The notes under the pieces: generated by a model
What the model was told of the DNA's origin: nothing
What the model saw: the letters and a program-made list of their open reading frames with translations, nothing else
Databases searched by the model: none
Assembly (NCBI GenBank): GCA_005776395.1
Contig: SXPJ01000018.1
Coordinates: forward strand, 1-44,574
Direction of reading: 5' to 3'
Length of the DNA stretch: 44,574 nucleotides
Source: Bdellovibrionales bacterium
GTDB lineage: Bacteria > Bdellovibrionota > FAC87 > UBA2466
Part shown: one piece after another, positions 18,545-36,787 of the stretch
How the letters are laid out: each line of letters opens with the position of its first letter
How positions within the stretch are numbered: position 1 is the stretch's first letter
Program-made: the position numbers and the translations under genes

Positions 18545-20140
18545 ATGTTTGACTCGTTGCATGGTTGGGTAAGTTATTTTTTACGTTGGGGCCATCTGAT
18601 TGCCGGAATCTCCTGGATAGGAAGTTCTTTCTATTTTGTTTGGTTAGATAGAGCCCTTACTCTTCCTGAAAAACCTAAAGAGGGGGTCGAGGGGGAGGTG
18701 TGGATGGTTCATAGTGGGGGATTTTACCAAGTAGAGCGTCGAAAAATAGCTCCCGGTCAAATGCCTCAGACCCTTCATTGGTTTAAGTGGGAAGCTGCTT
18801 TCACTTGGATTACGGGTGTGTTGCTTATGGCAGTTGTTTATTATGCCGGCGGTGGAGCCCTTCTGTTTGATGCGGGTGACAACTTTTCAAATGTTTCTCA
18901 AGCGATAGGTTTCTCGCTTTTGGTTTTACCTTTGTCTTGGCTTATTTACGATGGGCTTTGGAATTCTTCATTGGGAAAAAACACAAAAGCTGCCACTAGT
19001 ATCTCTTTTGTGTTGATGATGGGATTAGTTTACGGCCTTTCAAAATTTTTTGGCGGGCGTGCAGCTTACATGCACGTGGGAGCTGTCTTTGGCACTATTA
19101 TGGTGGCTAATGTATGGATGAGAATTTTGCCTGCTCAGCAGAAGATGATCGATGCGACTCAAGAGGGAAGACAACCTGACTTTACTTTAAGCGGAAAAGC
19201 TAAGCTTCGTTCTATTCACAATAGTTATCTAACCCTTCCTGTTCTTTTTTTAATGCTGAGTAACCACTACCCGATGACCTACGGAAGTGAAAAAAGTGTA
19301 GCGATTCTTCTTCTTCTTTTTGTTCTTGGCGCAGCTATTAGACACTATAAGATCACTAAGGAAAAAGTGGGATTTTTACCCCCTCTTTTAATTGTGGGAT
19401 CTCTTGCGGCCTTGGCCTATTTAACTCTTGAGAGAAAACCATCCCTTGAGAAATCTTCTGATTTGATCCCTTCTCAAGTTGAATCAGTACCTACTAGTTT
19501 CGTAGAACTATCTCAAACCGGAACGATTCATGCGGGGGTTAAATTCACAGGAACTGTTCCTCTTGCTAAAAAGATCTTTGTAACCCCTGAGTGTGTAGCA
19601 GCGAATAGCAAACCGCTCATGACTGAAACACTCATAGCTCAAAATGGGCGTCTTCAAAATGTATTTATTTGGATTAGTCGAGGGCTTGAAGCGAAAACAT
19701 TTCCAACTCCTACTAAGGAGGTCATTATCGATCAAAGAGAATGCGCCTATCGACCCCATGTGATTGGGGTTCAGGTGGGGCAGCCCGTTACCTTTTTAAA
19801 TAGCGACGCTTTTCTTCACAATATTCACTCGATGGCCAAGGAGAATGATAAATTTAATGTCAGTCTCGTCAACAAGAGCCAGAGAATTACACGCAAACTC
19901 ATGAAGCCTGAAATCATGCTGAGATCTAAATGCGATATCCATCCGTGGATGATGGGATATATCGGTGTGGTTTCTCATCCCTATTTTGGCGTTACCCATG
20001 AAAAAGGGGAAGTGACTTTAGTTCAAGTTCCTGCGGGTTCTTATACGGTATCCGCCTGGCATGAAACCCTGGGAATTAAGACCCAGGAATTAGAAGTTTC
20101 TGCCAAGGGAAATGTGAATGTGGAGTTTTCTTTTCCCTAA
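18545..20140 (+). CDS. puuD: PuuD-like membrane urate hydroxylase fused to an amicyanin-like cupredoxin domain
   Basis: 531 residues. Residues 1-300 match the membrane domain of PuuD urate oxidases (GWVSYFLRWGHLIAGISWIGSSFYFVWLD at the start, about eight hydrophobic segments), which oxidise urate to 5-hydroxyisourate. Known PuuD proteins carry a C-terminal cytochrome c; here there is no CXXCH. Instead residues about 325-531 form a cupredoxin-like domain with H425 in an HNIH motif, then C463, H466 and M469. The Cys-x2-His-x2-Met spacing and the HNxH motif match the blue-copper site of amicyanin. The domain would accept electrons on the outer face of the membrane. The gene begins the uricolytic operon; no strong ribosome-binding site precedes its ATG. 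Membrane-domain identity is strong, the copper role inferred. Confidence 0.88.
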   Translation: MFDSLHGWVSYFLRWGHLIAGISWIGSSFYFVWLDRALTLPEKPKEGVEGEVWMVHSGGFYQVERRKIAPGQMPQTLHWFKWEAAFTWITGVLLMAVVYYAGGGALLFDAGDNFSNVSQAIGFSLLVLPLSWLIYDGLWNSSLGKNTKAATSISFVLMMGLVYGLSKFFGGRAAYMHVGAVFGTIMVANVWMRILPAQQKMIDATQEGRQPDFTLSGKAKLRSIHNSYLTLPVLFLMLSNHYPMTYGSEKSVAILLLLFVLGAAIRHYKITKEKVGFLPPLLIVGSLAALAYLTLERKPSLEKSSDLIPSQVESVPTSFVELSQTGTIHAGVKFTGTVPLAKKIFVTPECVAANSKPLMTETLIAQNGRLQNVFIWISRGLEAKTFPTPTKEVIIDQRECAYRPHVIGVQVGQPVTFLNSDAFLHNIHSMAKENDKFNVSLVNKSQRITRKLMKPEIMLRSKCDIHPWMMGYIGVVSHPYFGVTHEKGEVTLVQVPAGSYTVSAWHETLGIKTQELEVSAKGNVNVEFSFP

Positions 20141-20145
20141 AGAGG
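20141..20145 (+). promoter_or_regulatory. Ribosome-binding site supporting start 20157
   Basis: AGAGG directly after the puuD stop codon lies 11 nt before ATG 20157. It supports that start over an upstream in-frame ATG at 20118 that lies inside puuD. Confidence 0.6.
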
Positions 20146-20156
20146 TGTTTAGCGAA

Positions 20157-21506
20157 ATGAGATTAGCGATTAAAAGTCGATCTGTTCTTTTACCTCAAGA
20201 GGGAATTTCCTTATCCTCTTTGAGGCCGGCTGTTCTCTATATTAAGAATGGAAAGATAGAACAAATTTCAGGTGAACTTGATCCAAAATTTACTGGTGAA
20301 GTGATTGATGTCGCAAGTGATGTAGTGATGCCAGGCCTTTGTGACACTCATGTGCACATGAATGAGCCGGGGCGAACGGAATGGGAGGGAATTGAGACTG
20401 CAACGAGAGCTGCTGCTGCGGGTGGAATTACGACCTTGGTGGATATGCCTTTAAATTCTATTCCCCCGACCACCACGGTGGAGGCTCTTCAGTTAAAGCG
20501 TGCTTTAGCTAAAAAAACTGCTTTTGTGGATTATGGATTTTGGGGTGGGGTCATTTCCGGAAACAAACAAGAGCTAGAACCACTTATTGAAAAAGGAATT
20601 TTAGGTTTTAAAGCTTTTATGATCGATTCAGGCGTTCCCGAATTTCCGATGGCCTCTGAAAAGGTGATTCGAGAAAGTCTCCCTATTTTGGCTAAATACG
20701 GAGTTCCTCTTTTGGTTCATGCGGAACTTGAGAGTCCAGTTCAGATGAAAAACTCTTCTGTTCGGAGTTATTCCAATTATTTAGCTTCAAGGCCTCAGAA
20801 GTGGGAGGTCGATGCGATTCGATTGATGATTCAGTTAGCTGAAGAATACGGTGCTCATGTTCATATCGTGCATTTGTCAGCAGCTGAGGCTTTAAGTGAA
20901 ATTGAAAAGGCCAAGGCTAAGAAGATTTTAATTTCAGCAGAGACCTGTCCTCATTATCTTACACTTAAATCGGAAGAGATTTCCGATGGAGCAACCCACT
21001 TTAAGTGTGCTCCTCCCATTCGTGAAAATGATAATCGAGAGAAACTTTGGGAAGGGTTAAATCGTGGAACTATTAATTTTATAGTTTCTGATCACTCACC
21101 CTGTACCCCTCAATTAAAAAAGATGGAGTTAGGAAATTTCAAAGAGGCTTGGGGGGGGATTGCAGGTCTTCAGTTTAGTCTGCCTGTGATCTGGACCGAG
21201 ATGGTAAGTCGAGGGCTCACTTTAGAATATTTATCTAACTTGATGGCTCAATCGACGACTCAATTTCTTAAAATAAAAGGGAAGAGTGGAAAGATTGAAG
21301 TGGGAATGGATGCGGATCTTGTGGTTTGGGATCCTGAAGCACTCTTTACTTTCAATGAATCGCAGATTTATCATCGTCATAAGGTGACCCCGTATCTAGG
21401 AAAAAAATTACAAGGCATAGTGAAGAAGACCTTTGTTCGTGGTCAATGTGTTTACGATTTGGGAAAATTCACAGGCCCCTTAGGCCAAGAGGTTTCACGA
21501 TTATAG
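20157..21506 (+). CDS. allB: Allantoinase
   Basis: Hydrolyses allantoin to allantoate in the cytoplasm. 449 residues from the ATG at 20157. This is a cyclic amidohydrolase: the metal-binding DTHVHMNEPGRTEWEG is followed by AAAAGGITTLVDMPLNS, then GFKAFM with the lysine expected to be carbamylated, HAE and HIVHLSA histidines, and the C-terminal metal ligand in SDHSP. These fix it as allantoinase rather than dihydroorotase or hydantoinase. It follows puuD by 16 bp. Its TAG stop lies inside the left arm of the repeat element at 21502-21667, so the natural C-terminus may have been altered by that insertion. Confidence 0.93.
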   Translation: MRLAIKSRSVLLPQEGISLSSLRPAVLYIKNGKIEQISGELDPKFTGEVIDVASDVVMPGLCDTHVHMNEPGRTEWEGIETATRAAAAGGITTLVDMPLNSIPPTTTVEALQLKRALAKKTAFVDYGFWGGVISGNKQELEPLIEKGILGFKAFMIDSGVPEFPMASEKVIRESLPILAKYGVPLLVHAELESPVQMKNSSVRSYSNYLASRPQKWEVDAIRLMIQLAEEYGAHVHIVHLSAAEALSEIEKAKAKKILISAETCPHYLTLKSEEISDGATHFKCAPPIRENDNREKLWEGLNRGTINFIVSDHSPCTPQLKKMELGNFKEAWGGIAGLQFSLPVIWTEMVSRGLTLEYLSNLMAQSTTQFLKIKGKSGKIEVGMDADLVVWDPEALFTFNESQIYHRHKVTPYLGKKLQGIVKKTFVRGQCVYDLGKFTGPLGQEVSRL

Positions 21507-21667: not shown

Positions 21668-21678
21668 TAGAAAGAGTT

Positions 21679-21683
21679 GGAGA
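21679..21683 (+). promoter_or_regulatory. Ribosome-binding site fixing the allantoicase start
   Basis: GGAGA, 5 nt before ATG 21689, overlaps an in-frame TTG at 21677 and therefore argues against that earlier start. Confidence 0.7.
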
Positions 21684-21688
21684 GAAAA

Positions 21689-22723
21689 ATGGAATCACAT
21701 ACAAATTCAACAAACCCATTTCAGCATTTGATTGATCTCGCTTCTGAGCGGTTAGGCGGAAAAGCCCTTCTTACAAACGATGATTTTTTTGCTCCTAAAA
21801 GTAATTTGGTTAAAGCTATTGAGCCCATTTTTATTCCAGGCAAATACACTCTTAAAGGAAAATGGATGGATGGCTGGGAGTCACGAAGAAGAAGAGTCCC
21901 TGGATATGACTGGTGTATTGTGAAATTGGGAGTGCCGGGTAAGATTCAAGGCGTTAACTTGAATACAGCCTTTTTCACTGGGAATTATCCTGAACATTTT
22001 TCTTTAGAAGCTCTCTATTGCCCCAAAGTTGAAACGCCTACGAGCCTAACTAAATCAAAAGTCCAATGGGTGGAACTCATTCCAAAGACCTCTCTTAAAG
22101 GAGATAGCCATAATTTTTTTCCAGCCACTAATGATAAGGCTTGGACCCATGTTCGACTCAATATTTTTCCGGATGGAGGAGTTGCAAGACTTCGAGTTTA
22201 CGGAACTGTGACGCCCAATTGGGAGAGATTAAAAAAATCTAAAACTCCAATTGATCTTGCGGCGATTTCTCATGGGGCTCAAGTCATTACTTGTAATGAT
22301 AATCATTACGGTCGAATGGAGAACTTAATTCTTCCTGGGAAAGCTCTCAATATGGGAGATGGGTGGGAAACAAAAAGAAAAAGAGTCCCCGGACACGATT
22401 GGATTATTGTTAAGTTAGGAGCTACGGGATCGGTTCGAAAGATTGAAGTTGATACCCAGTTTTTCAAAGGAAATTATCCCGATACCTGCTCAATTGAGGG
22501 ATGTTATTATCCCAAAAGAGATTTGAAACCAGAAGATTTCTCTAAGTCTCGAGATCTCAAATGGGTTGAGCTTTTGCCGCAAACAAAACTTAAGGCGCAT
22601 CACAGCCATTTTTTTGATAAAGTTTTGACAGCGGCAGCTAAAGAGGGAAGTTTTGATTATCTTCGACTTAATATTTTCCCTGATGGAGGGGTGAGTCGAC
22701 TTAGAGTCTATGGATTTGCCTAA
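21689..22723 (+). CDS. alc: Allantoicase
   Basis: Hydrolyses allantoate to ureidoglycolate and urea. 344 residues with two homologous halves, as in known allantoicases. The first repeat has GWESRRRRVPGYDW and the second GWETKRKRVPGHDW, each followed by a VKLG strand, an FFxGNYP motif and NIFPDGGVxRLRVYG. Both halves are complete. It is the third gene of the uricolytic operon, lies just after the MITE-like element, and ends 2 bp before the next ATG. Confidence 0.95.
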   Translation: MESHTNSTNPFQHLIDLASERLGGKALLTNDDFFAPKSNLVKAIEPIFIPGKYTLKGKWMDGWESRRRRVPGYDWCIVKLGVPGKIQGVNLNTAFFTGNYPEHFSLEALYCPKVETPTSLTKSKVQWVELIPKTSLKGDSHNFFPATNDKAWTHVRLNIFPDGGVARLRVYGTVTPNWERLKKSKTPIDLAAISHGAQVITCNDNHYGRMENLILPGKALNMGDGWETKRKRVPGHDWIIVKLGATGSVRKIEVDTQFFKGNYPDTCSIEGCYYPKRDLKPEDFSKSRDLKWVELLPQTKLKAHHSHFFDKVLTAAAKEGSFDYLRLNIFPDGGVSRLRVYGFA

Positions 22724-22725
22724 AA

Positions 22726-23241
22726 ATGAACCCATTAACACTGCAACAATTTAATTGTCTTTCTAAAGAAGAGGCTATTGAAGCTCTAACTTACTGTTGT
22801 GGGGCATCTCATTGGGCCTCTAAAATCGAGAGGCTTCGCCCCTTTAAAAGTATAAAGAGCCTTGTAGAGAATTCTGCGAGAATTTGGAGTGAACTTTCAG
22901 AAAAAGACTGGAAAGAGGCTTTTACTCATCACCCTAAAATTGGGGATTTAGAATCTTTAAAGAAAACATTTGCCTCTACTCGAGATTGGGCTCAGCAAGA
23001 GCAGCAAGCAAGCCAAGGAGCTTCTATTTCTGTATTGCAAGCACTTGCTTTGGGGAACCAAACCTACGAGAATCGATTCGGATATATTTTTATCGTTTGT
23101 GCGACTGGAAAATCGGCTAATGAGATGCTAAGCCTTCTTGAGGGGAGACTTAAAAATGATCCGAAGCTTGAAATTACCCTTGCAGCAAAAGAACAGGAAA
23201 AGATCACTAAGATTCGATTGGAGAAGTTAATTCATGAATAA
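22726..23241 (+). CDS. uraD: 2-oxo-4-hydroxy-4-carboxy-5-ureidoimidazoline (OHCU) decarboxylase
   Basis: Converts OHCU to S-allantoin. 171 residues, the typical length. The signature HPKIGD (near residue 64) contains the catalytic His, and NRFGYIFIVCATGKSANEML is the family's C-terminal motif. No clear ribosome-binding site precedes the ATG, which is 2 bp after the allantoicase stop, so translation is probably coupled. It overlaps the next gene by 8 bp. Confidence 0.93.
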   Translation: MNPLTLQQFNCLSKEEAIEALTYCCGASHWASKIERLRPFKSIKSLVENSARIWSELSEKDWKEAFTHHPKIGDLESLKKTFASTRDWAQQEQQASQGASISVLQALALGNQTYENRFGYIFIVCATGKSANEMLSLLEGRLKNDPKLEITLAAKEQEKITKIRLEKLIHE

Positions 23242-23581
23242 ACTGAGCCCTATTACCACTCATGTACTTGATGTGAGTTGTGGAAAACCTGCAGCTAATA
23301 TTTCCTGTAAGCTCGAGAGATTGAACTCACAATCTCAGTGGGAAAAGATCGGTGAGGGGGTCACTAATCAAGATGGAAGAGTAGACACTTTGCTGTCTTC
23401 ACCTATTAATAAAGGGATTTATCGGATTGAGTTTTTAACAAAACCTTATTTCGAGCAGAAAAAAACAAATTCATTTTATCCTTCGGTGACGGTTCATTTT
23501 GAGATTGTCTCACCCGAAGAGCACTATCATGTTCCCTTACTTTTAAGTCCTTATGGCTATTCAACTTATCGAGGAAGCTGA
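23234..23581 (+). CDS. uraH: 5-hydroxyisourate hydrolase (transthyretin-like)
   Basis: Hydrolyses 5-hydroxyisourate, the product of the urate hydroxylase, to OHCU. 115 residues, full length. The family's N-terminal ITTHVLDVSCGKPA with the catalytic His and its C-terminal YRGS tetrapeptide are both present; HYHVPLLLSPYGYSTYRGS is the classical ending. The gene overlaps uraD by 8 bp, fitting consecutive steps of the pathway. No signal peptide is seen, so it acts in the cytoplasm. Confidence 0.96.
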   Translation: MNKLSPITTHVLDVSCGKPAANISCKLERLNSQSQWEKIGEGVTNQDGRVDTLLSSPINKGIYRIEFLTKPYFEQKKTNSFYPSVTVHFEIVSPEEHYHVPLLLSPYGYSTYRGS

Positions 23582-23586
23582 TACTT

Positions 23587-24936
23587 ATGAAAACTACATT
23601 CACTCAAGACTCTCTTGGCCCCATTACCTCTAGTTTACATTCGGCAAATCAGAGGTTTTTAAAGTTGTATCCTGGAATGACTCATGATCGCCAGCCGGTT
23701 CATACGGTCTATGGGGGGGCTCAGATCTTTTCGAGTGATACGGCAAAAAAGATGAGTGGTGTTGCAGTTAGAAATCTTAAAGAGTATGCGCCCAATGCTA
23801 AATCTCTTATGAAAGCCTTAGGCGAAGAAAAGGCCGACATTGAACTGTGGTCTAAGATATACTTTCGAGTCATTAAAAAGTTAGAGGACGAGGCAGTTGA
23901 AGATTTTCGCATTGATTATGAGGACGGTTACGGAACCCGTCCAGATGCTGAAGAGGATGGACACGCTGAAAGTGGGGCTTTAGAGGTTGCCAAAGGGATA
24001 GCTCAAGGTTCGTTGCCCCCTTTTATTGGAATTCGGATTAAGCCTTTTTCTGAAGAATGCTATGCACGAAGTATTCGAACTCTAGATATTTTTCTCTCTA
24101 CTTTATTGAGTCAAACTTCCGGGAAGTTACCGCTTAAGTTTGTGGTGACACTTCCTAAAGTTACTCATCAAGAGCAATGTGCAGCTTTAGTTCAGCTTTT
24201 TGAGGTCTTGGAAAAACAATATAAGTTACCTATAGGAACTTTAAAATTTGAATTTATGGTCGAAACGACCCAATCAATTTTAAATGCCGAAGGGAGTTCC
24301 CCTTTAAGAAGTTTTGTAGAGGCTGGAAAAGGGCGATGTACAGGGGCTCATTTTGGAACTTACGATTATACGGCTGGGTGTGGGATAACAGCGCACTATC
24401 AAACGATGATTAACCCAGTTTGTGATTTTGCCAAACATGTAATGCAAGTTTCATTAATGGGAACGCCAGTTTTACTCTCGGATGGAGCGACTAATGTGAT
24501 GCCGGTGGGGCCTCATCGAGCTTTAGAAGGTAAGCCTTTGAGTTTAGATCAGATCCAAGAAAACCAAGCGGTTGTCCATCGAGCCTGGAAGTTAAGCTAT
24601 GATCATATTCGTCATTCCTTAGCGACCGGTTTTTACCAAGGATGGGATCTTCATCCAGCACAACTTCCCGTTCGATATGCTGCAACTTATGCCTTTTTCT
24701 TAGAAACTCTCAATTCGGCTTCAGATCGACTTAAAGGATTTGTGGAAAAAGCAGCTAAAGCCACTTTGTTAGGAGATGTCTTTGATGATGCCGCGACGGG
24801 TCAGGGGCTTTTAAACTTTTTTTTAAGAGCTTTAAGCTGTGGGGCCATCACCTCTGAAGAGGCTTTAAAGACGGGGCTTTCTATTGAAGAGATCCAAAGT
24901 CGATCTTTTATGAAAATTTTGGAACGACGAAGGTAA
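23587..24936 (+). CDS. CitE/HpcH-fold aldolase-like protein (DUF6986 type), possible glyoxylate-consuming enzyme
   Basis: 449 residues, cytoplasmic. The layout follows the citrate lyase beta/malyl-CoA lyase/malate synthase superfamily: an IDYEDGYG block (110-116), GIRIKPF (148-153), E226 in FMVETTQ and D260 in GTYDYTA, the last two being the expected Mg ligands. I recall this group as DUF6986, often mislabelled phosphoenolpyruvate kinase and found beside allantoin genes in actinobacteria. Its place at the end of a uricolytic operon, 5 bp after uraH, suggests it condenses glyoxylate from ureidoglycolate with an acyl-CoA. That reaction is inference. Confidence 0.75.
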   Translation: MKTTFTQDSLGPITSSLHSANQRFLKLYPGMTHDRQPVHTVYGGAQIFSSDTAKKMSGVAVRNLKEYAPNAKSLMKALGEEKADIELWSKIYFRVIKKLEDEAVEDFRIDYEDGYGTRPDAEEDGHAESGALEVAKGIAQGSLPPFIGIRIKPFSEECYARSIRTLDIFLSTLLSQTSGKLPLKFVVTLPKVTHQEQCAALVQLFEVLEKQYKLPIGTLKFEFMVETTQSILNAEGSSPLRSFVEAGKGRCTGAHFGTYDYTAGCGITAHYQTMINPVCDFAKHVMQVSLMGTPVLLSDGATNVMPVGPHRALEGKPLSLDQIQENQAVVHRAWKLSYDHIRHSLATGFYQGWDLHPAQLPVRYAATYAFFLETLNSASDRLKGFVEKAAKATLLGDVFDDAATGQGLLNFFLRALSCGAITSEEALKTGLSIEEIQSRSFMKILERRR

Positions 24937-25120: not shown

Positions 25121-25525
25121 GTGGAGACGGGATACATCACAGCTTTTTGGTTTATCATCATATCCGCATTAACCGTTCCCTTAATGTTGGGAGTGGGTTA
25201 TCTGCTTCGTCCTAAGAGTAAGGTTACCCGTAGAAAAATGACCTCCTATGAGTGTGGTGAAGAGCCGGTAGGTTCGGCCTGGGTTAAGTTCAATATTCGA
25301 TTTTATATGGTTGCGATTGTTTTTATTATTTTTGATGTAGAGATGGCAGCTATTTTTCCAGTGGCCACTGTTTTTAAAGAGTCCATTGCAAATGGAACTG
25401 TGGCTTTAGTCTTTAGTGAAATTTTTCTTTTTGTGGCCCTTCTTTTAATTGGTTTGATTTACTGTTGGGTCCGTGGAGACTTGGAGTGGGTAAAAGGCGT
25501 AACTAAGTTCGCCCCCAATAAATAA
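25121..25525 (+). CDS. nuoA: NADH-quinone oxidoreductase subunit A, set 1
   Basis: Complex I membrane-arm subunit at the junction with the peripheral arm. 134 residues, three membrane helices. The loop SYECGEEP contains the conserved Cys of subunit A, and FIIFDVEMA in the second helix carries the conserved acidic pair. A GTG start with AGAGG at 25105-25109 (11 nt spacing) is used. It is the first of seven set 1 genes; its stop shares one base with the nuoH start (TAATG). Confidence 0.95.
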
Positions 25526-26658
25526 TGGTTCAATCGGCTCAATTTGCACATTCGTTAGAAGGTTGGTTTGGCTTACTTCCTTTATGGGGATGGGCTGCTG
25601 TATCAGCTTTTATCGTTATTTACTTTTTAGCTTTACCTTTTGGTGGGTTAGCCACTTACATTGAAAGAAAGATTGCGGCCGACATGCAAGACCGCATTGG
25701 CCCTAATCGCGTAGGCCCTATCGGACTTTTTCAGTTTGCGGCTGATGCTGTTAAAATGTTGGCTAAAGAGGACTTTATTCCTAAAGGTGGCGACCGTTTT
25801 CTATTTAATCTAGCCCCTTTATTTGTTGTGGTGGGTTCTTGTACAGCCTTTGCGGTTCTTCCTTTAAGTAAGTACTTAATAGGTGCTGATCTTAATATCG
25901 GGGTTGTCTTTATTCTTGCGGTAACCACTTTAATTGCTCCCGGACTTCTTTTGGGTTCGTGGGCCTCTGAAAATAAATGGTCTTTATTAGGAGGACTGAG
26001 AGCGGCTTCTCAAATCGTGAGTTATGAGATTCCAGTGGCCCTTTCAATTCTGCCTATCGTTTTGATTTCGGGGAGTCTTCAAATTGGCTCGATTGTAGAG
26101 CAACAGGGATGGACAGTTTTTGGTGAAAATCAAGCTAGTTATCACTTCTGGAATGCTTTTCATAATCCCTTTACCTTCTTCTCTATGTTTCTGTTGTTTA
26201 TAGGGGGGCTTGCTGAAACCAACCGTATTCCCTTTGATTTACCGGAGGCTGAATCAGAATTGGTCTCTGGATTTAACACCGAGTTTTCTGGAATGAGATT
26301 TGGTTTATATGCACTGGGTGAGTTCTGCGATGTTTTCGTAATGTCAGCGATGGTTACAGCACTGTATTTAGGGGGTTGGCACATTCCCTTTTTAGACATT
26401 GAAAAGCTAGGGTTTGCGTTACCCACGGCTCTTGTCGCTTTTGTTCAGTTTCATATGTTTATGATTAAGACCTTATTAGTGGTGTTCGTAGTTATGTGGC
26501 TACGATGGACCCTTCCTAGGTTGCGTGTCGACCAATTGATGGGTATGTGTTGGAAAGGTCTTCTTCCTCTTGCTTTCTTTAATATTTTGGGAACTGCACT
26601 TTGGATGTGGGTATTTAAAGGTCAGTCTCTCATGCAGCTTTTGGCGGGGCATGGGTGA
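25525..26658 (+). CDS. nuoH: NADH-quinone oxidoreductase subunit H, set 1
   Basis: 377 residues. Subunit H forms much of the quinone channel. ATYIERKIAADMQDRIGPNRVGP and AETNRIPFDLPEAESELVSGFNTE, the two family signatures, are intact, including the acidic loop facing the quinone cavity. About eight membrane helices. The start shares its A with the nuoA stop. It is 23 residues longer than the set 2 copy, mainly in loops. Confidence 0.96.
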   Translation: MVQSAQFAHSLEGWFGLLPLWGWAAVSAFIVIYFLALPFGGLATYIERKIAADMQDRIGPNRVGPIGLFQFAADAVKMLAKEDFIPKGGDRFLFNLAPLFVVVGSCTAFAVLPLSKYLIGADLNIGVVFILAVTTLIAPGLLLGSWASENKWSLLGGLRAASQIVSYEIPVALSILPIVLISGSLQIGSIVEQQGWTVFGENQASYHFWNAFHNPFTFFSMFLLFIGGLAETNRIPFDLPEAESELVSGFNTEFSGMRFGLYALGEFCDVFVMSAMVTALYLGGWHIPFLDIEKLGFALPTALVAFVQFHMFMIKTLLVVFVVMWLRWTLPRLRVDQLMGMCWKGLLPLAFFNILGTALWMWVFKGQSLMQLLAGHG

Positions 26659-26661
26659 TTT

Positions 26662-27165
26662 ATGAATAAAGTTTTGCTTTTAGCTGAAATTTTAACCGTC
26701 GCCTCAGCTTTAGTGGTTGGGTTTCATCCCAATATTCTTTACGCTTCAGTTTTCTTGCTCTTCACTTTCTGTGGAGTGGCAGTCATGTTCCTGTATGCAG
26801 GGGCCGATTTTTTAGCGGGTGCTCAAATTATTATCTATGTAGGTGGTGTGACTATTCTGATTCTGTTCGCCATTATGTTGACCCAATGGCTTTACAAAAT
26901 CAAACTCGCGGATCTAAGAAATAAGATGATTCTGCCTGCGATATTATCTGTGGCTGTGGCTGTTTTTTTATATCGTGCTCTTCATCAGATGGTGGCAACA
27001 TTGCCGCTTCAAACACCTGAAGCTTTGGAAAAATTCACTTCGACTCCTAAAACAGCCCTCATGGGTCATGCGCTTTTAGGCAGTTACTTACTTCCTTTTG
27101 AAGCTATTACCATTCTTCTTTTAGGGGCAATGGTTGGAGCTGTTTGGTTAGCGAGGCCTGAATGA
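26662..27165 (+). CDS. nuoJ: NADH-quinone oxidoreductase subunit J, set 1
   Basis: 167 residues, five membrane helices. The key third helix reads IIIYVGGVTILILFAIMLT. This differs from the set 2 paralogue, ILIYTGAIVVLFVFVVMLL, and resembles NuoJ of other lineages, pointing to separate ancestry of the two sets. The J third helix contains the pi-bulge involved in coupling, so differences there may matter. It overlaps nuoK by 4 bp. Confidence 0.92.
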   Translation: MNKVLLLAEILTVASALVVGFHPNILYASVFLLFTFCGVAVMFLYAGADFLAGAQIIIYVGGVTILILFAIMLTQWLYKIKLADLRNKMILPAILSVAVAVFLYRALHQMVATLPLQTPEALEKFTSTPKTALMGHALLGSYLLPFEAITILLLGAMVGAVWLARPE

Positions 27166-27488
27166 ATCATCTCATGCAATTTAGTTCAAGTTTGCAGGGG
27201 TACTTAGCTGTAGGAGCTATGCTTTTTTCTCTTGGAATTTTTTGTGTTTTGACACGAAAAAATGCCATCGGAATTTTGCTGGGGATTGAACTTATCCTGA
27301 ACGCTGCAGCCATAAATTTTGTCGCTTTTAGTAAATTTAGAACCGGTTTGATTGACGGTCAGATCGTCGCTCTCTTCATCATGCTGATTGCAGCAGCTGA
27401 GGCTGCGGTGGCACTTGCCGTGATCTTACGTTTTTATCGGCTTAAACAAACCATTGATGCAGATGAAGCAAGCATCATGAGGAACTAA
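27162..27488 (+). CDS. nuoK: NADH-quinone oxidoreductase subunit K, set 1
   Basis: 108 residues, three helices, MrpC-like antiporter relative. The conserved glutamate in GIELILNAAAINF (helix 2) and that in AAAEAAVALAVIL (helix 3), both needed for proton transfer in the E. coli protein, are present. It overlaps nuoJ by 4 bp and lies 1 bp before nuoL. Confidence 0.95.
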   Translation: MNHLMQFSSSLQGYLAVGAMLFSLGIFCVLTRKNAIGILLGIELILNAAAINFVAFSKFRTGLIDGQIVALFIMLIAAAEAAVALAVILRFYRLKQTIDADEASIMRN

Positions 27489-27489
27489 G

Positions 27490-29565
27490 ATGGCACAGCA
27501 AGCATTATTAATTGCTTTATTTCCGTTATGTGCGTTTGTCATTCAAGCGCTCTTTGGAAAAAAACTCCCCCGCCACGGAGATTTTGTCTCTGTGCTTGCG
27601 ATTTTCGGATCGTTTGTAGTAGCGGTTCCAATCTTCACGAAGTTACTAACTCAAGGACATGTCTTTGAGACCTTCCAAGTCACCTGGATGGCACTTCCTG
27701 GAGTTGAAGCTAGTGGTAAACTTAATAGTGCAGCGAACATTGTTATTGGGGTTCTTATCAATAACTTGACCGCGATCATGCTGATCATGGTTACCTTATG
27801 TGCCTCTTTGATTCACCTCTTCTCAGTCGGTTACATGCATGGAGAAGAACGTTACCATCTATTTTTTGCTTATATTTCTCTGTTTTCTGCTGGAATGTTG
27901 GGACTTGTTCTTTCGGATAATCTCTTAACATTTTTTATGTGCTGGGAGTTGATGGGGCTTTGTTCTTATCTGTTGATTGGGTTCTATTACAAAAAGCCAT
28001 CGGCGATTAACGCTAGTATCAAAGCTTTTATGACCACTCGTGTGGGCGATACCATGTTCTTTTTAGGTATTGCGGCTCTTTATTATGTTTTCGGCACCAG
28101 CAACTTCATGGAGCTCTACAAAGCTCTTCAACAGGGTGCGGGTCACGATGTCATGATTGCAGGTTTTCCAGCTTTAACCTTTATTGGTTTTATGGTTCTG
28201 ATGGGAACTATTGGTAAATCGGCTCAATTTCCACTTCATGTTTGGTTACCCGATGCGATGGAAGGTCCCACACCTGTAAGTGCTCTTATCCATGCTGCAA
28301 CTATGGTGGCTGCGGGTGTATTTCTTTTGATTCGTATGTTTCCGCTTTTAGAAGCTTCTCATACGATACTTCCAATCGTGGCCTACATAGGTGCGATTAC
28401 AGCGTTCTTGGCAGCCTTGATAGCGATTGTTCAAGTCGATATCAAAAAAGTTCTTGCTTACTCTACTATCAGTCAATTGGGTTACATGGTGATGGGGGTA
28501 GGTGTGGGGGCTTTCGCCCCTGGTTTCATGCATCTGATAACCCATGCCTGTTTTAAAGCCTGTTTATTTTTGTGCTCAGGTTCGGTTATTCACTCTGTTC
28601 ATACTCAGGACATGAGAGAAATGGGCGGTCTAAAATCCAAAATGCCGATTACGTTTGCGACCATGTTTATCGCTACATTGGCTATCAGTGGCGTTCCAGG
28701 ATTTTCTGGGTTTGTAAGTAAAGACCGAATTCTTGGGGGGGCTTTGGCCTATAGCATGGAACATCAAGGGCATTACCTAATTCCATTATTAGGATTTGCT
28801 ACTGCCGGCATTACTGCTTTCTATATGTTCCGTATGATTTACATGACCTTCTTTGGTCATGCTCGTGATGAACACAAACATCATCATGCTCACGAACAGC
28901 CCGTAACAATGACTATTCCACTCATGATCTTGGCCTGTTTATCCTTTGCGATTGTATTTGCGGGACCTACTGGCATTGAATCGATTGATCATATGATGCC
29001 TGTGAAATGGTTTGATCACGCTTTAGAAGGTGCTCAACATGAAATGGGAATTGCAGAACACTTGTCTCCTGAAGCTGAAGCCATTCATCACCATGCTCAT
29101 GGGTTAGCCTTGATACTCTCTTTGGCTGTTGCAGGTCTGGGGATTTTTATCTCCTCCATCACTTACTTGAAGCACATTCTCAAAGCAGAGACCTTAAAGA
29201 AGATGGCAGGACCGGTCTACCCTCTGTTGTGGAATAAGTATTTCTTTGATGAGTTTTACATTGGAATTCTAATCCAAAAAGGGCTTCTCAAATTCAATCA
29301 CTTTCTAGCCGTGTTTGACGATAAAGTTATCGATCGAATTTGTGTGGATGGATGGCGCGATATTACCATGGGTGTAAAAAGTATCATTGGAAGATTTGAT
29401 GATGTGGTTGTTGATCGAATTATGGTGGATGGGACTGCCGATGTCACTGCGGGTGGCGGATGGGTGTTACGTCAATTTCAGACCGGAAAAGTTCAACATT
29501 ATTTAGTTTTGACAGTGATGGTAATCATTGTGGCTTTGTTTTATGCAAATTTGGGCTTGAAGTAG
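27490..29565 (+). CDS. nuoL: NADH-quinone oxidoreductase subunit L, set 1
   Basis: 691 residues, the distal antiporter-like proton pump with the long lateral C-terminal helix. The TM5 glutamate is E153 in CWELMGLCSYLLIGFYY, and HVWLPDAMEGPTPVSALIHAATMV is intact. Two His-rich loops (DEHKHHHAHEQ, around 28870-28902, and HHHAHG, about 29090) lie between the later helices and are absent from set 2. The C-terminal segment (IDRICVDGWRDI...GGGWVLRQFQTGKVQHYL) is typical of the lateral-helix region and final anchor. Confidence 0.96.
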   Translation: MAQQALLIALFPLCAFVIQALFGKKLPRHGDFVSVLAIFGSFVVAVPIFTKLLTQGHVFETFQVTWMALPGVEASGKLNSAANIVIGVLINNLTAIMLIMVTLCASLIHLFSVGYMHGEERYHLFFAYISLFSAGMLGLVLSDNLLTFFMCWELMGLCSYLLIGFYYKKPSAINASIKAFMTTRVGDTMFFLGIAALYYVFGTSNFMELYKALQQGAGHDVMIAGFPALTFIGFMVLMGTIGKSAQFPLHVWLPDAMEGPTPVSALIHAATMVAAGVFLLIRMFPLLEASHTILPIVAYIGAITAFLAALIAIVQVDIKKVLAYSTISQLGYMVMGVGVGAFAPGFMHLITHACFKACLFLCSGSVIHSVHTQDMREMGGLKSKMPITFATMFIATLAISGVPGFSGFVSKDRILGGALAYSMEHQGHYLIPLLGFATAGITAFYMFRMIYMTFFGHARDEHKHHHAHEQPVTMTIPLMILACLSFAIVFAGPTGIESIDHMMPVKWFDHALEGAQHEMGIAEHLSPEAEAIHHHAHGLALILSLAVAGLGIFISSITYLKHILKAETLKKMAGPVYPLLWNKYFFDEFYIGILIQKGLLKFNHFLAVFDDKVIDRICVDGWRDITMGVKSIIGRFDDVVVDRIMVDGTADVTAGGGWVLRQFQTGKVQHYLVLTVMVIIVALFYANLGLK

Positions 29566-29592
29566 AGTCCAAGGTTTTTTGAAAGGGAGAGT

Positions 29593-31107
29593 ATGTTTCC
29601 GATTCTATCAGTAATGACCTATATCCCCTTGTTGGGCATGATCGTTATCTTAGCTTTGCCTCGCAATAATCCAAATCTCGTGAGATGGGTTGCGGTGGTG
29701 GCCACAGCGCTTCCACTAGCCTTGGGTGTCTATCTGTATATGCATTTCGACAGAACGACTGCCAGTATGCAGTTTGTCGAGCAGTTTGATTGGATCAAAC
29801 CTTTCAATATTCAGTACTACATGGGAATAGACGGACTTAGTATTCCGATGGTTCTATTAACAGTACTTCTCTCTTTCCTTTGTATCATTGCATCTTGGGG
29901 AATTGAAAATGGAGTTAAAGGGTACTACGCAATGTTCCTGTTTTTAGAGACAGGAATGATGGGAGTATTCTGTGCTTTAGATTTCTTCCTCTTCTTCCTC
30001 TTCTGGGAAATTATGCTTCTTCCCATGTACTTCTTGATTGGTATCTGGGGAGGTAAAGAGAAGGTTTACGCAGCTATCAAATTCTTTTTGTACACTTTAT
30101 TTGGTTCCGTGCTGATGCTGCTTGTGATGGTGGGTATGTATTATTACTCCGAACCGCATACATTTAACCTGTTGCAGTTAGCTCAAGGTCATCAGTTTGT
30201 AGGGAAAACAATAGCTCTATTCGGCTACTCATTACCTTTAGATAAACTTTTTTGGATAGGTCTTTTTATTGGGTTTGCGATTAAAGTTCCCGTATGGCCT
30301 TTCCACACTTGGTTGCCTTGGGCGCATGTGGAAGCTCCTACAGCTGTTTCTGTGATCTTGGCCGGTGTTCTTCTAAAAATGGGAACTTACGGAATTCTTA
30401 GGATGAACTATCCTATTCTTCCAGAGGCTACTCTGTGGGCCTCTAATTTCATGATGATTCTTGGAGTGATCAATATTCTTTACGGCGCTTTCTGTGCAAT
30501 GGCTCAGAAAGATCTTAAGAAACTTGTGGCCTATTCTTCAGTATCTCATATGGGATACGTGATTGTAGGGATGGCAAGTTTCACCACTGCGGGTGTGAAT
30601 GGCGCTGTTCTTCAAATGTTTAATCACGGAACTTCAACCGCCATGCTGTTCTTGCTCGTAGGGATTATTTACGATCGTGTTCATCATCGTTGGATTGTTA
30701 AACCTGATGGTTCCAAGGGCTTTGGTGGAATTGCTTCGGTCGTTCCTGTCTACACAGGGGTTATGGCTATCGCTCTTTTCGCCTCTTTAGGTCTTCCGGG
30801 ATTGAGCGGATTTATCAGTGAAGCTTTGGTGTTCTTAGGTGCTTTTTCCAATCCCAAATTTCAAACCTATGTAGTGATTGGTTCGCTTGGCATTTTACTA
30901 GGAGCTGCCTATCTTTTGTGGATGTTCATGAGAGTCTTCTTAGGACCTCTTAATGAAGAGCATAAAGATCTCAAGGACATGAATTGGAGAGAGACTTTTA
31001 CTCTGATTCCGCTTTGCGTTTTAGTGATTGTTTTAGGTGTTTACCCCATGCCAGTGTTGAATCTTATGGGCAGTACCCTTGCTAAACTATTAACGCTATT
31101 CTCTTAA
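29593..31107 (+). CDS. nuoM: NADH-quinone oxidoreductase subunit M, set 1
   Basis: 504 residues, antiporter-like proton pump. TM5 E139 (FWEIMLLPMYFLIGIWG), TM7 K231 (FAIKVPVWPFHTWLP) and LLKMGTYG are present. After HTWLP the usual Asp is replaced: the protein reads HTWLPWAHVEAPTAVSV, so W243 sits where NuoM normally has Asp, and a Val replaces the usual Gly in APTAGSV. The set 2 paralogue keeps Asp. Codon 30319-30321 is TGG. The gene starts 27 bp after nuoL with a GAAAGGGAG ribosome-binding site. Confidence 0.95.
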   Translation: MFPILSVMTYIPLLGMIVILALPRNNPNLVRWVAVVATALPLALGVYLYMHFDRTTASMQFVEQFDWIKPFNIQYYMGIDGLSIPMVLLTVLLSFLCIIASWGIENGVKGYYAMFLFLETGMMGVFCALDFFLFFLFWEIMLLPMYFLIGIWGGKEKVYAAIKFFLYTLFGSVLMLLVMVGMYYYSEPHTFNLLQLAQGHQFVGKTIALFGYSLPLDKLFWIGLFIGFAIKVPVWPFHTWLPWAHVEAPTAVSVILAGVLLKMGTYGILRMNYPILPEATLWASNFMMILGVINILYGAFCAMAQKDLKKLVAYSSVSHMGYVIVGMASFTTAGVNGAVLQMFNHGTSTAMLFLLVGIIYDRVHHRWIVKPDGSKGFGGIASVVPVYTGVMAIALFASLGLPGLSGFISEALVFLGAFSNPKFQTYVVIGSLGILLGAAYLLWMFMRVFLGPLNEEHKDLKDMNWRETFTLIPLCVLVIVLGVYPMPVLNLMGSTLAKLLTLFS

Positions 31108-31110
31108 GTT

Positions 31111-31116
31111 AAGAGG
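31111..31116 (+). promoter_or_regulatory. Ribosome-binding site fixing the nuoN start
   Basis: AAGAGG, 5 nt before GTG 31122, makes that the likely start; a GTG at 31116 in frame overlaps the site. Confidence 0.65.
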
Positions 31117-31121
31117 TGTTT

Positions 31122-32603
31122 GTGACGGCTGAAACTTTACATAATATCAAGTTGCTGGCTCCTGAAGTCTGCCTCACTTTTTTTCTCTGCTTCCTCTTTG
31201 TAGTCGATGGCCTTTTTCCTAAAACTCGGACCAATAAGTTTTCAATGATTACTACAGTAGTGGCCTGCATCGCTGGGATCTTACTAACCTGTAAAGTGGG
31301 AAAAACACCTGAGGCCTATTTCGGTGGACTTGTAGTGAACGATGGATTTACAAAGTTCTTCCGATATTTCTTCTTCTTTACAGCGGCAGTGAGCAGCTAT
31401 GTTGCTTTTGGTTCTAAAGAGATCGAAACCCGAAGCCGCATGGAGTTCTCACTTCTATTACTTTGTACAACCATTGGTATGTCAATTATGGCAGCTGCCT
31501 CCAACCTTTTAGTTCTCTACATGGGAATTGAAATGGTCAGTATTATCTCGTTTGTGATGGCTGGATTTAAGCGAGATAATTTAAAATCCAATGAAGCTTC
31601 ATTTAAATATTTAGTTTTTGGAGGAGTGGCTTCTGGCTTCATGATCTACGGCTTTAGTTTGATGTATGGTTTAACTGGTTCATTAAACTACCCTCAGATG
31701 GCGGCCTATTTAACTGCGGCTCAAGGTAATTTTGGATTGGTATTTTGGTTAGCTTTAGTGCTTATCTACGGTGGACTTGCTTATAAGATATCCGCATTTC
31801 CTATGCACTTCTGGGCCCCTGACGTCTATGAAGGTGCTCCAACACCTATTGCGACCTTTTTCAGTGTAGGTCCTAAAGCTGCTGGATTTGCCGCTTTATT
31901 GCGAATGCTCCTTACAGTTTTTGCAGTGAAAACAGCTGAGGGAAATTGGCAGATGATCAACGGCATCTCCTTAACTCATGTCATTGCAGTTATCTCTGCT
32001 CTTACTATGGTAGTAGGAAACCTCTCAGCTATTGGTCAAACCAATGTGAAGCGAATTTTAGCTTACTCAAGTATTGCTCATGTAGGTTACATGTTGATGG
32101 GACTTGTAACCTTGGATCGTTCTGGTCTTACAGCGATCCTCTTTTATCTCATTGCTTACTGTGCGATGAACCTTGGGGCCTTTTGGGTTGTGGGTGTGGT
32201 TGCAAACCTTCGGGGTAGAGAAGATCTTGATGCTTTCCGAGGTCTCGGCTGGTCGATGCCAGTTCTTGGAATCTGTATGGGTATTTTCATCTTTTCTCTG
32301 ACTGGGATTCCAATGTTTTCTGGATTTATTGGAAAGTTCCTTATTTTTGGCTCTATCATTAAATCAGGAGGCTACTTATGGTTAGTTCTCTTAGGTGTGA
32401 TGAACAGTGTGGTCTCTCTCTATTACTACATTAAAATTTTGAAATCGATGTGGTTAGATAGGCCTGAGAGCCCAGAATCACTTAAGCTGTCTACTTACCA
32501 TGCAGTGGGCTTAGTAGGACTTGCCATCCCCACTGTTGTGCTTGGATTGTATTTCACTCCGATTTTGGAGTTTGCTGAAAGAACTCTCTCAAATCTGTTA
32601 TAG
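31122..32603 (+). CDS. nuoN: NADH-quinone oxidoreductase subunit N, set 1
   Basis: 493 residues from the GTG at 31122. Third antiporter-like pump of the membrane arm. YMGIEMVSIISFVMAGF carries the TM5 Glu, and SNEASFKYLVFGG, SAFPMHFWAPDVYEGAPTP and GPKAAGFAALLR with the conserved lysines are intact. It is the last gene of set 1 and lies 30 bp before nuoA of set 2, with no terminator between, so both sets are probably in one transcript. Confidence 0.95.
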   Translation: MTAETLHNIKLLAPEVCLTFFLCFLFVVDGLFPKTRTNKFSMITTVVACIAGILLTCKVGKTPEAYFGGLVVNDGFTKFFRYFFFFTAAVSSYVAFGSKEIETRSRMEFSLLLLCTTIGMSIMAAASNLLVLYMGIEMVSIISFVMAGFKRDNLKSNEASFKYLVFGGVASGFMIYGFSLMYGLTGSLNYPQMAAYLTAAQGNFGLVFWLALVLIYGGLAYKISAFPMHFWAPDVYEGAPTPIATFFSVGPKAAGFAALLRMLLTVFAVKTAEGNWQMINGISLTHVIAVISALTMVVGNLSAIGQTNVKRILAYSSIAHVGYMLMGLVTLDRSGLTAILFYLIAYCAMNLGAFWVVGVVANLRGREDLDAFRGLGWSMPVLGICMGIFIFSLTGIPMFSGFIGKFLIFGSIIKSGGYLWLVLLGVMNSVVSLYYYIKILKSMWLDRPESPESLKLSTYHAVGLVGLAIPTVVLGLYFTPILEFAERTLSNLL

Positions 32604-32997: not shown

Positions 32998-34062
32998 ATG
33001 GAGTGGACAGATCTCATTGTAATTGCAGTTAAGACAGCGATTATCTATTTGGGGATGGTCCAGGTTGTTCCTATCATGTTGATTGTGGAGCGAAGAGGGG
33101 CTGCTTTTATTCAAGATCGTCCGGGTCCAAATAGAGTGGGCCCTTTTGGGCTTTTTCAGCCTATTGCCGATGTCATTAAAATGATGATGAAAGAGGTTAT
33201 CAGTCCTCGGCAAGTGAACAAGGCCCTCTATCTTCTTGGCCCTTTTTTAGTTCTTTTACCGGCCTCTTTAATTGTTGCAGCCCTTCCCTTTGGAGATTTT
33301 TTTACTCTCTTTGATAAGAGCTACATGATTCAGATCGCCAACCTGGATGTTGGAATTCTCTATGTGTTAGCCATTGGCTCTCTTGGAATTTACGGAATTT
33401 TGTTTGGAGGCTGGGCTTCAAATAATAAGTTTTCTCTCATTGGAGCGATGAGAGCCACTTCTCAAATTATCAGTTATGAAATTCCATTGGGCCTAGCAGC
33501 TTGTGGTGCCGTTCTTTCCTATGGCAGTTTCAGTCTGAGGGAGATGGTAATGGCTCAAGAGGGAACTCTTTTGGGGGCTCTTCCCCATTGGGGAATCTTT
33601 TATCAGCCTTTAGGATTTTTACTTTTTTTTATAGCGGCCTTTGCAGAGACTAATCGTCTACCTTTCGATCTTCCAGAAACCGAGGCGGAGCTAGTTGCCG
33701 GATTTCACACTGAGTATGGTCCCATGGATTTCGGAACTTTCTTTATGGCCGAGTACATGAACATGGCAACCATGTCAGCTCTCATGGTATCGATCTATTT
33801 TGGGGGATGGCATTTACCCTGGATTTCAGATGCCACTTTACTTGAAGGATTAGGATCTCGAAATCTTCTAGCTCTTCTTCAAGTTCTTACTGTCATAGTT
33901 AAAATTTCATTTTTCATGTTGGTATTTGTATGGGTTCGATGGACTATCCCTCGATTTCGTTTCGACCAGTTGATGCGTCTCGCTTGGAAAAATTTGATTC
34001 CACTCGGACTTATTAATTTGGTGATCACCGCCCTAATCTTTTATTTTAAGGGGGCCATATGA
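32998..34062 (+). CDS. nuoH: NADH-quinone oxidoreductase subunit H, set 2
   Basis: 354 residues. VERRGAAFIQDRPGPNRVGP and AETNRLPFDLPETEAELVAGFHTEYG are both intact, so the quinone-channel loops look functional. About eight membrane helices. It begins 1 bp after the nuoA stop and overlaps nuoJ by 4 bp. The set 1 version has ERKIAADMQDRIGPNRVGP at the first signature, showing divergence even in conserved blocks. Confidence 0.96.
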   Translation: MEWTDLIVIAVKTAIIYLGMVQVVPIMLIVERRGAAFIQDRPGPNRVGPFGLFQPIADVIKMMMKEVISPRQVNKALYLLGPFLVLLPASLIVAALPFGDFFTLFDKSYMIQIANLDVGILYVLAIGSLGIYGILFGGWASNNKFSLIGAMRATSQIISYEIPLGLAACGAVLSYGSFSLREMVMAQEGTLLGALPHWGIFYQPLGFLLFFIAAFAETNRLPFDLPETEAELVAGFHTEYGPMDFGTFFMAEYMNMATMSALMVSIYFGGWHLPWISDATLLEGLGSRNLLALLQVLTVIVKISFFMLVFVWVRWTIPRFRFDQLMRLAWKNLIPLGLINLVITALIFYFKGAI

Positions 34063-34568
34063 GAGAAGGGCTCTTTATAGCTTTTAGCCTTTTTACGATT
34101 GCCGCAGCTAGTGGGGTCGTTCTTTCTAAAAACCCAGTGTATAGCGCTTTTAGTCTTATACTCTCCTTCTTTGGATTGTCTGGCCTATATTTGCTCTGGG
34201 GCTCTACCTTTATGGCGATGATACAGATCTTAATCTACACTGGAGCTATTGTAGTTCTTTTTGTGTTTGTGGTTATGCTTTTGAATCTTCAGGTGATTCG
34301 AGAAAACTCACCGAATTTATTATTTGTTGGAGTTGTATCGGCTACAGTTTGGTTTTTTTCTTTGATCATTCTTAGGGTTTTGACTCGAGCCATTCCAACT
34401 AATGTGACAGAGATTCCAACTAATCAATTACGAACTATTTCAAAATTGTTATTCACCCGTTATTTGTGGCCTTTTGAAGTTCTTTCCCTATTTCTACTTG
34501 TTATGATTGTGGCAATTTTCGCTATTACTCGGGCGCAGGAGATTTCGCACGGGGGAGAAAAAGTATGA
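34059..34568 (+). CDS. nuoJ: NADH-quinone oxidoreductase subunit J, set 2
   Basis: 169 residues, five helices. The third helix (MIQILIYTGAIVVLFVFVVML) is the common proteobacterial form, unlike set 1. Overlaps nuoH and nuoK by 4 bp each (ATGA type), implying translational coupling. Confidence 0.92.
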   Translation: MREGLFIAFSLFTIAAASGVVLSKNPVYSAFSLILSFFGLSGLYLLWGSTFMAMIQILIYTGAIVVLFVFVVMLLNLQVIRENSPNLLFVGVVSATVWFFSLIILRVLTRAIPTNVTEIPTNQLRTISKLLFTRYLWPFEVLSLFLLVMIVAIFAITRAQEISHGGEKV

Positions 34569-34879
34569 ATTTTCCTCTTTCAATGACCTACTGGTCTCAC
34601 TTTGTAGTGGTGGCGATGTTTGCGCTGGGTCTTTTAGGATTTCTTTTAAGAAAGAACACTATTGTAGTTTTAATGTCCATTGAACTCATGCTCAATGCAG
34701 TGAATCTATTGTTAATTGAGACCTCGATGCGAACCCATACTTCTGAGGGAATTATTTTAGTTGTATTTGTGGTGACCGTGGCTGCAGCGGAAGTGGCTGT
34801 AGGCTTAGCCATTGTATTGAATCTGTATCGGATGAAGGGTTCGGTAAATTTAGATCACTTTAAGAGTTTGCAAGGATAG
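34565..34879 (+). CDS. nuoK: NADH-quinone oxidoreductase subunit K, set 2
   Basis: 104 residues, three helices. Both key glutamates are present: MSIELMLNAVNLL in helix 2 and AAAEVAVGLAIVLNLYR in helix 3. It overlaps nuoJ by 4 bp and precedes nuoL by 2 bp. Length is typical for the subunit. Confidence 0.95.
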   Translation: MNFPLSMTYWSHFVVVAMFALGLLGFLLRKNTIVVLMSIELMLNAVNLLLIETSMRTHTSEGIILVVFVVTVAAAEVAVGLAIVLNLYRMKGSVNLDHFKSLQG

Positions 34880-34881
34880 TT

Positions 34882-36786: not shown

Positions 36787-36787
36787 A

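Follow-up and report, generated by a model that had tools for sequence, protein, structure and literature searches.

How do electrons leave a membrane-bound urate oxidase that carries another domain in the place of its C-terminal cytochrome? The published model of PuuD reportedly ties the membrane domain of this enzyme to an obligatory cytochrome c. The question is raised by a gene of a Bdellovibrionales bacterium, in which a membrane domain of the PuuD type is joined to a predicted copper domain. The gene lies on a stretch of 44,574 nucleotides (contig SXPJ01000018.1, assembly GCA_005776395.1), here termed the window. In the reading that we hold with good confidence, its product is a urate oxidase with a type-1 copper exit towards an aa3-type oxidase, belonging to a family in which haem c, copper and a free carrier are exchangeable; we infer activity, copper binding and partner from the evidence given below.

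Architecture of the fusion protein and its operon

The fusion gene heads a complete uricolytic operon with genes for allantoinase, allantoicase, UraD, HIUase and a DUF6986 protein, after which complex I genes follow (Table 1). DUF6986, a malate-synthase-like barrel, recurs in uricolytic operons across phyla. The complex I membrane-subunit ORFs form two sets of similar lengths (25525-32603 and 32998-39807), the first of which was covered by our family scan. The window genome encodes one full-length Urate_ox_N protein, the fusion, and one short paralogue of 209 aa (L177:6816-7442, contig G000:C41).

The Urate_ox_N model (PF06181) matches residues 5-286 over the full length of the domain (E = 1.5e-102; 343.5 bits against a cut-off of 26.9), confirming the sequence-only reading of the N-terminal part as PuuD-like. 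The main text of Doniselli et al. 2015 (PMC4562309) calls the haem motif CXXCH of PuuD strictly conserved and states that all full-length DUF989 proteins carry a cytochrome; the words ‘copper’ and ‘cupredoxin’ are absent from that main text. A search of open-access journal papers found none describing a copper form. The usual cytochrome c is indeed missing here, as had been claimed: CXXCH is absent from the 531-aa protein, and cysteines occur only at positions 350, 400 and 463. Since a C-terminal CXXCH cytochrome was looked for and not found, we do not class the fusion as a cytochrome c urate oxidase. After Urate_ox_N no Pfam family matches above its cut-off, and Copper-bind gives no match at E 0.01; CarboxypepD_reg (PF13620, residues 483-529) reaches E = 0.0037, under its cut-off.

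Lysine and arginine residues number 6, 2, 5 and 4 in loops 1-2, 3-4, 5-6 and 7-8, compared to 0, 2 and 1 in loops 2-3, 4-5 and 6-7, with three more just past the last helix. This pattern agrees with a published PuuD topology in which both termini lie outside (N-out, C-out; Doniselli et al. 2015, PMC4562309), and thus places the copper domain in the periplasm. Fold searches with the membrane domain did not clearly match any known structure (best E 0.48 in Foldseek, best Z 6.9 in VIA), which is no evidence of a new fold. The fusion resembles PuuD as described in that paper (PMC4562309) in its eight-helix Urate_ox_N/DUF989 domain, its uricolytic operon and its C-terminal carrier after the last helix, but differs in that the carrier is a predicted type-1 copper domain without CXXCH. 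The fusion belongs to Urate_ox_N and most likely functions as PuuD does, through a different carrier.

In an AlphaFold2 model computed from an alignment of 19 sequences, the C-terminal part is built of strands, and block means of pLDDT range from 66 to 95 over residues 321-531, with values of at least 80 from residue 361 onward. Residues 390-476 superpose on plastocyanin (7pcy; Z 13.1, rmsd 1.6 over 84 residues) and on amicyanin (Z 12.3, rmsd 1.8 over 86 residues), and Foldseek agrees on a cupredoxin fold, which bears out the barrel expected from the sequence. A phmmer search with the single domain gave a faint yet genuine similarity to amicyanin (E about 2e-3), and a profile of 19 fusions searched against the PDB ranked amicyanins and the Nitrosopumilus cupredoxin 5fc9 at the top (E about 5e-6). 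As the amicyanin model TIGR02657 scores 19.5 bits at residues 406-473, far under its cut-off of 110.2, we call the domain amicyanin-like and not an amicyanin.

The copper ligands of amicyanin are H53, C92, H95 and M98. In our alignment, in which the amicyanin numbering matches the mutant names P94F, P96G and M98A in PDB titles, they correspond to H425, C463, H466 and M469, exactly the ligand set that had been proposed. All four are invariant in the 55 complete copper-form relatives. Counted over 56 copper-form sequences, H425, N426, C350 and C400 are kept in every one and C463, H466 and M469 in 55, the exception (L073) ending at a contig edge. The proposed HNxH motif held in part: H425, N426 and H428 are all present here, but only HN is conserved. 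At position 428, the 56 sequences have 11 His, 31 Arg, 13 Lys and 1 Ser, and H428 is no general ligand because 45 of them carry R, K or S. When the C-terminal 213 residues were shuffled 200,000 times, HNxH...CxxHPxM never arose and the looser H...CxxHxxM arose 366 times. The predicted fold and the amicyanin alignment of the four ligands agree with each other; H425, C463, H466 and M469 may converge on one site and bind type-1 copper.

The domain thus shares with amicyanin and plastocyanin the fold (Z 12-13 over 84-86 residues) and with amicyanin the spacing of His and Cys-x2-His-x2-Met. Unlike both, it is tethered to a membrane enzyme and is flanked on its C-terminal side by a beta-sandwich and on its N-terminal side by a further region, whose invariant pair Cys350 and Cys400 likely forms a disulphide. 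Two copper enzymes, Thermus NirK (6hbe) and a multicopper oxidase with a C-terminal cupredoxin (9cck), also come out near the top when the C-terminal domain is searched by fold; their catalytic part is itself copper-based, whereas that of the fusion is the membrane domain.

Table 1 Features of the fusion gene and the downstream operon (window positions)
Feature	Position	Strand	Basis
Urate oxidase membrane domain and cupredoxin fusion, 531 aa	18545..20140	+	
Urate_ox_N / DUF989 domain, residues 5-286, 8 predicted membrane helices	18557..19402	+	Pfam, models
Flexible linker, residues 297-318	19433..19498	+	pLDDT < 50
Predicted periplasmic beta domain with cupredoxin fold, residues 325-476, core 390-476	19517..19972	+	model, fold search
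Cys350, invariant (56/56), likely disulphide with Cys400	19592..19594	+	
Cys400, invariant (56/56), likely disulphide with Cys350	19742..19744	+	
His425, predicted copper ligand 1 (amicyanin His53)	19817..19819	+	alignment, conservation
Cys463, predicted copper ligand 2 (amicyanin Cys92)	19931..19933	+	alignment, conservation
His466, predicted copper ligand 3 (amicyanin His95)	19940..19942	+	alignment, conservation
Met469, predicted axial copper ligand (amicyanin Met98)	19949..19951	+	alignment, conservation
C-terminal beta-sandwich, CarboxypepD_reg-like, residues 481-531	19985..20137	+	weak PF13620, strands in model
Allantoinase AllB	20118..21506	+	TIGR03178, 538 bits
Allantoicase	21677..22723	+	TIGR02961, 435 bits
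OHCU decarboxylase UraD	22726..23241	+	PF09349, 5.3e-39
5-hydroxyisourate hydrolase (HIUase)	23234..23581	+	PF00576, 4.8e-41
DUF6986 protein, often in such operons	23587..24936	+	PF22484, 5.9e-177

Distribution and history of the C-terminal domains

Surveyed by the type of their C-terminal domain, as the sequence-only reading had suggested, PuuD homologues fall into three states, namely haem c, cupredoxin and none, and the copper state is widespread. Within the Bdellovibrionota, Urate_ox_N and a cupredoxin match share one frame in 61 of 368 genomes, 56 times as one alignment (three of these end early, at query residues 439, 457 and 489) and five times as two; in G323 the two matches lie in two frames. 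The other Urate_ox_N matches of the phylum comprise 15 with CXXCH by reading, four more judged to be haem forms by length alone, seven that are tail-less by reading (G009, G057, G091, G092, G166, G167 and G170) and two by length alone (G168 and G169), the remainder being fragments or cut at contig ends. A fusion was found in 9 of 377 Myxococcota genomes and separate neighbouring genes in two; 11 Myxococcota sequences were read as haem forms. One Myxococcota PuuD frame has two tandem CXXCH motifs in its C-terminal part (L202:1069-3063). Matches occur in 17 of 396 Acidobacteriota genomes (two copper, 15 tail-less) and in 13 of 392 Planctomycetota genomes; nine of the latter have Urate_ox_N, with at least five copper forms by reading, one sequence with neither motif and three outside the classification, and the rest have the cupredoxin alone. 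For 50 loci (L055-L104) of the best 80 from a search of genome contigs, we counted 18 copper forms, one cut-off copper form (L073), 29 haem forms and two tail-less forms, a copper share that is biased upward because the loci are the best matches to a copper-form query. None of the 265 records with a match in the plasmid collection holds a copper form covering 80% of the query. A candidate fusion of PuuD and allantoinase in G354 (892-aa frame) was rejected, as the frame crosses unknown bases; the PuuD part there carries CXXCH.

Neighbours of copper forms were surveyed at loci outside the window's family. The full set of AllB, allantoicase, UraD and HIUase stands beside the copper forms at L056, L057, L231, L232, L234 and L235; L062, L058 and L064 have HIUase together with a large frame that resembles allantoicase and, weakly, UraD, L238 has only AllB in its stretch, and the stretches of L072, L233 and L236 contain no uricolytic gene. 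Such frames of about 1,560 aa in Bacteriovoracia-type operons (L062:8021-12748, L058:7894-12573, L064:7877-12589 and L149:7228-11892) are perhaps multi-enzyme fusions.

Tail-less Urate_ox_N frames of about 275-370 aa (L239-L252 in Acidobacteriota, and G009) stand in many cases in uricolytic operons. G009, a genome from the window's family, has an operon that matches that of the window gene by gene, with a tail-less Urate_ox_N of 298 aa (L154:5951-6844), and it keeps the stand-alone cupredoxin. Loss of this tail by a frameshift was rejected, as the 298-aa frame stops three bases before the allantoinase frame. Similarity to allantoinase, allantoicase, UraD and HIUase is found together in the stretches of eight of 14 tail-less Acidobacteriota loci (L239, L242, L243, L244, L245, L248, L250 and L252); L246 shows three of the four, L240 and L247 two, and L241, L249 and L251 none. 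Since tail-less Urate_ox_N stands in complete operons, the family can do without a tethered carrier. The Myxococcota genomes G491 and G507 hold a Urate_ox_N gene followed by a separate cupredoxin-family gene (L229:5339-7049 and L230:4472-6168), whose product has, by eye, an apparent lipoprotein or signal sequence. The 7.9- and 8.5-kb stretches with these pairs contain no uricolytic genes, and the pairs may therefore act on another substrate. Taken together, G009, the tail-less Acidobacteriota forms and the split pairs suggest a membrane domain that is able to pass electrons to either a free or a tethered carrier.

In a membrane-domain tree of 100 rows, the window clade (six rows, support 100) sits among 22 haem rows in a 28-row set with support 96, apart from the main copper clade of 41 rows (35 copper, six tail-less; support 96). 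A second tree of 89 rows, which includes Myxococcota, agrees (27-row set, support 95). For this tree, near-copies of rows of the first were thinned and repeats removed; long or carrier-less rows including L072, L088, L119, L103, L104 and L110 were left out, as were 13 further rows (12 carrier-less ones and L205). AU tests on 81 rows, after eight more had been dropped, mostly long branches, rejected a single clade of all copper and nested carrier-less rows (p = 0.00086), a union of the window clade with the main copper clade (p = 0.021) and a union of the window clade with four Myxococcota rows (p = 0.001). These are quick trees, and the groups tested were named after the trees were seen. In a tree of the C-terminal domains, the window clade, the main clade and a stand-alone clade are each firm (support 99 for all three) with their mutual order open, and the tree thus names no domain donor. 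Descent of all copper forms from one fusion, with the haem forms among them arising from later swaps, would be compatible with that open deep order and with change counts that cannot tell gain from loss, but the three AU rejections make it unlikely, and several haem-copper exchanges remain even so. Haem and copper tails were thus probably exchanged more than once on the membrane domain, in whichever direction, as judged from these quick trees.

The electron exit and its possible partner

We propose that the eight-helix Urate_ox_N domain oxidises urate to 5-hydroxyisourate, as suggested by the PuuD family and the operon, and that electrons would pass one at a time to the tethered periplasmic type-1 copper domain and not to a tethered cytochrome c. 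The copper domain may then reduce the CuA centre of the sole aa3-type oxidase found, directly or via a stand-alone cupredoxin. Haem c, copper and a free carrier would be interchangeable modules at the electron exit of this enzyme family.

The window genome encodes one haem-copper oxidase with COX2 and COX3 adjoining, and a Rieske/cytochrome b gene set followed by a protein with eight CXXCH motifs. Alternative complex III was rejected as a partner, as its NrfD-type marker PF03916 was not found in the window genome or in the six other family-f1 genomes searched; overall, PF03916 was found in two of ten genomes searched. A swap forced by absent cytochrome c biogenesis was rejected too: genes of the ResB/CcsA type, PF13442 matches and CXXCH proteins are present, and since the genome makes c-type cytochromes, the swap is not explained by a lack of haem c.

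A different downstream partner had been predicted for the copper form, and the best candidate is a stand-alone cupredoxin of the window genome (L155:8678-9427). A member of the same family at 44% identity, it has the same four ligands and the same C-terminal beta-sandwich, but it is unfused and falls into its own clade in the C-domain tree. Its gene lies directly upstream of a 122-aa COX2_TM-like ORF (E 0.008, under the cut-off), ctaA and ctaB (cluster L155:8678-11679). The order cupredoxin-ctaA-ctaB, with or without the small ORF, recurs at 10 of 11 stand-alone loci and in 10 of 10 f1 and f2 genomes fetched, a count that leaves out the G005 copy (3.2-kb contig). It was not found in the three f10 genomes fetched, and L166 is a contig-edge fragment. 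The ctaA and ctaB genes provide haem-A synthesis for aa3 oxidase, and the cupredoxin branch beside them would serve this enzyme. With somewhat less confidence than for the reading as a whole, we favour an exchangeable exit in which haem and copper replaced each other, either way, on several occasions, and in which a cupredoxin branch of the respiratory chain connects purine breakdown with the aa3 oxidase.

Might the cupredoxin hold copper but stand off the electron path, in copper storage, delivery or sensing or in superoxide scavenging, while another carrier takes the electrons? Tail-less Urate_ox_N in complete operons, whose core may reduce a free carrier, and the occurrence of the domain family on its own would agree with such a role. 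We nevertheless consider it rather improbable, as the domain occupies the exact place of the haem carrier in the known enzyme, its type-1 ligand set is invariant, the haem-copper exchange recurred, and stand-alone members in the window's family adjoin haem-A synthesis genes. Still less probable is a substrate other than urate with an incidental operon position. The Urate_ox_N family does include shorter proteins outside uricolysis (PMC4562309), and one such paralogue lies at G000:C41; against this stand the complete operon, here and at several other copper-form loci, the status of the fusion as the only full-length Urate_ox_N of its genome, and 46 positions kept at ≥90% in the membrane domains of both copper forms (37 rows) and haem forms (45 rows). 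An assembly chimaera or gene-calling artefact, conceivable for a draft genome of 106 contigs, is refuted by copies with 70-75% identity over residues 1-530/531 in five genomes (four others within the genus, the fifth from a sister genus) and by dozens of distant full-length copies.

Implications for urate oxidation

The preferred reading thus remains a urate oxidase with a copper exit towards the aa3 oxidase. A full-length Urate_ox_N domain no longer implies a cytochrome c, which corrects the earlier reading, and the copper form is a new enzyme form for annotating purine use in Bdellovibrionota. To our knowledge, neither the cofactor of the PuuD membrane domain nor its mechanism has been established. 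The series of haem, copper and no carrier on one catalytic domain offers a probe of what the membrane domain passes on, at which potential and to which recipient.
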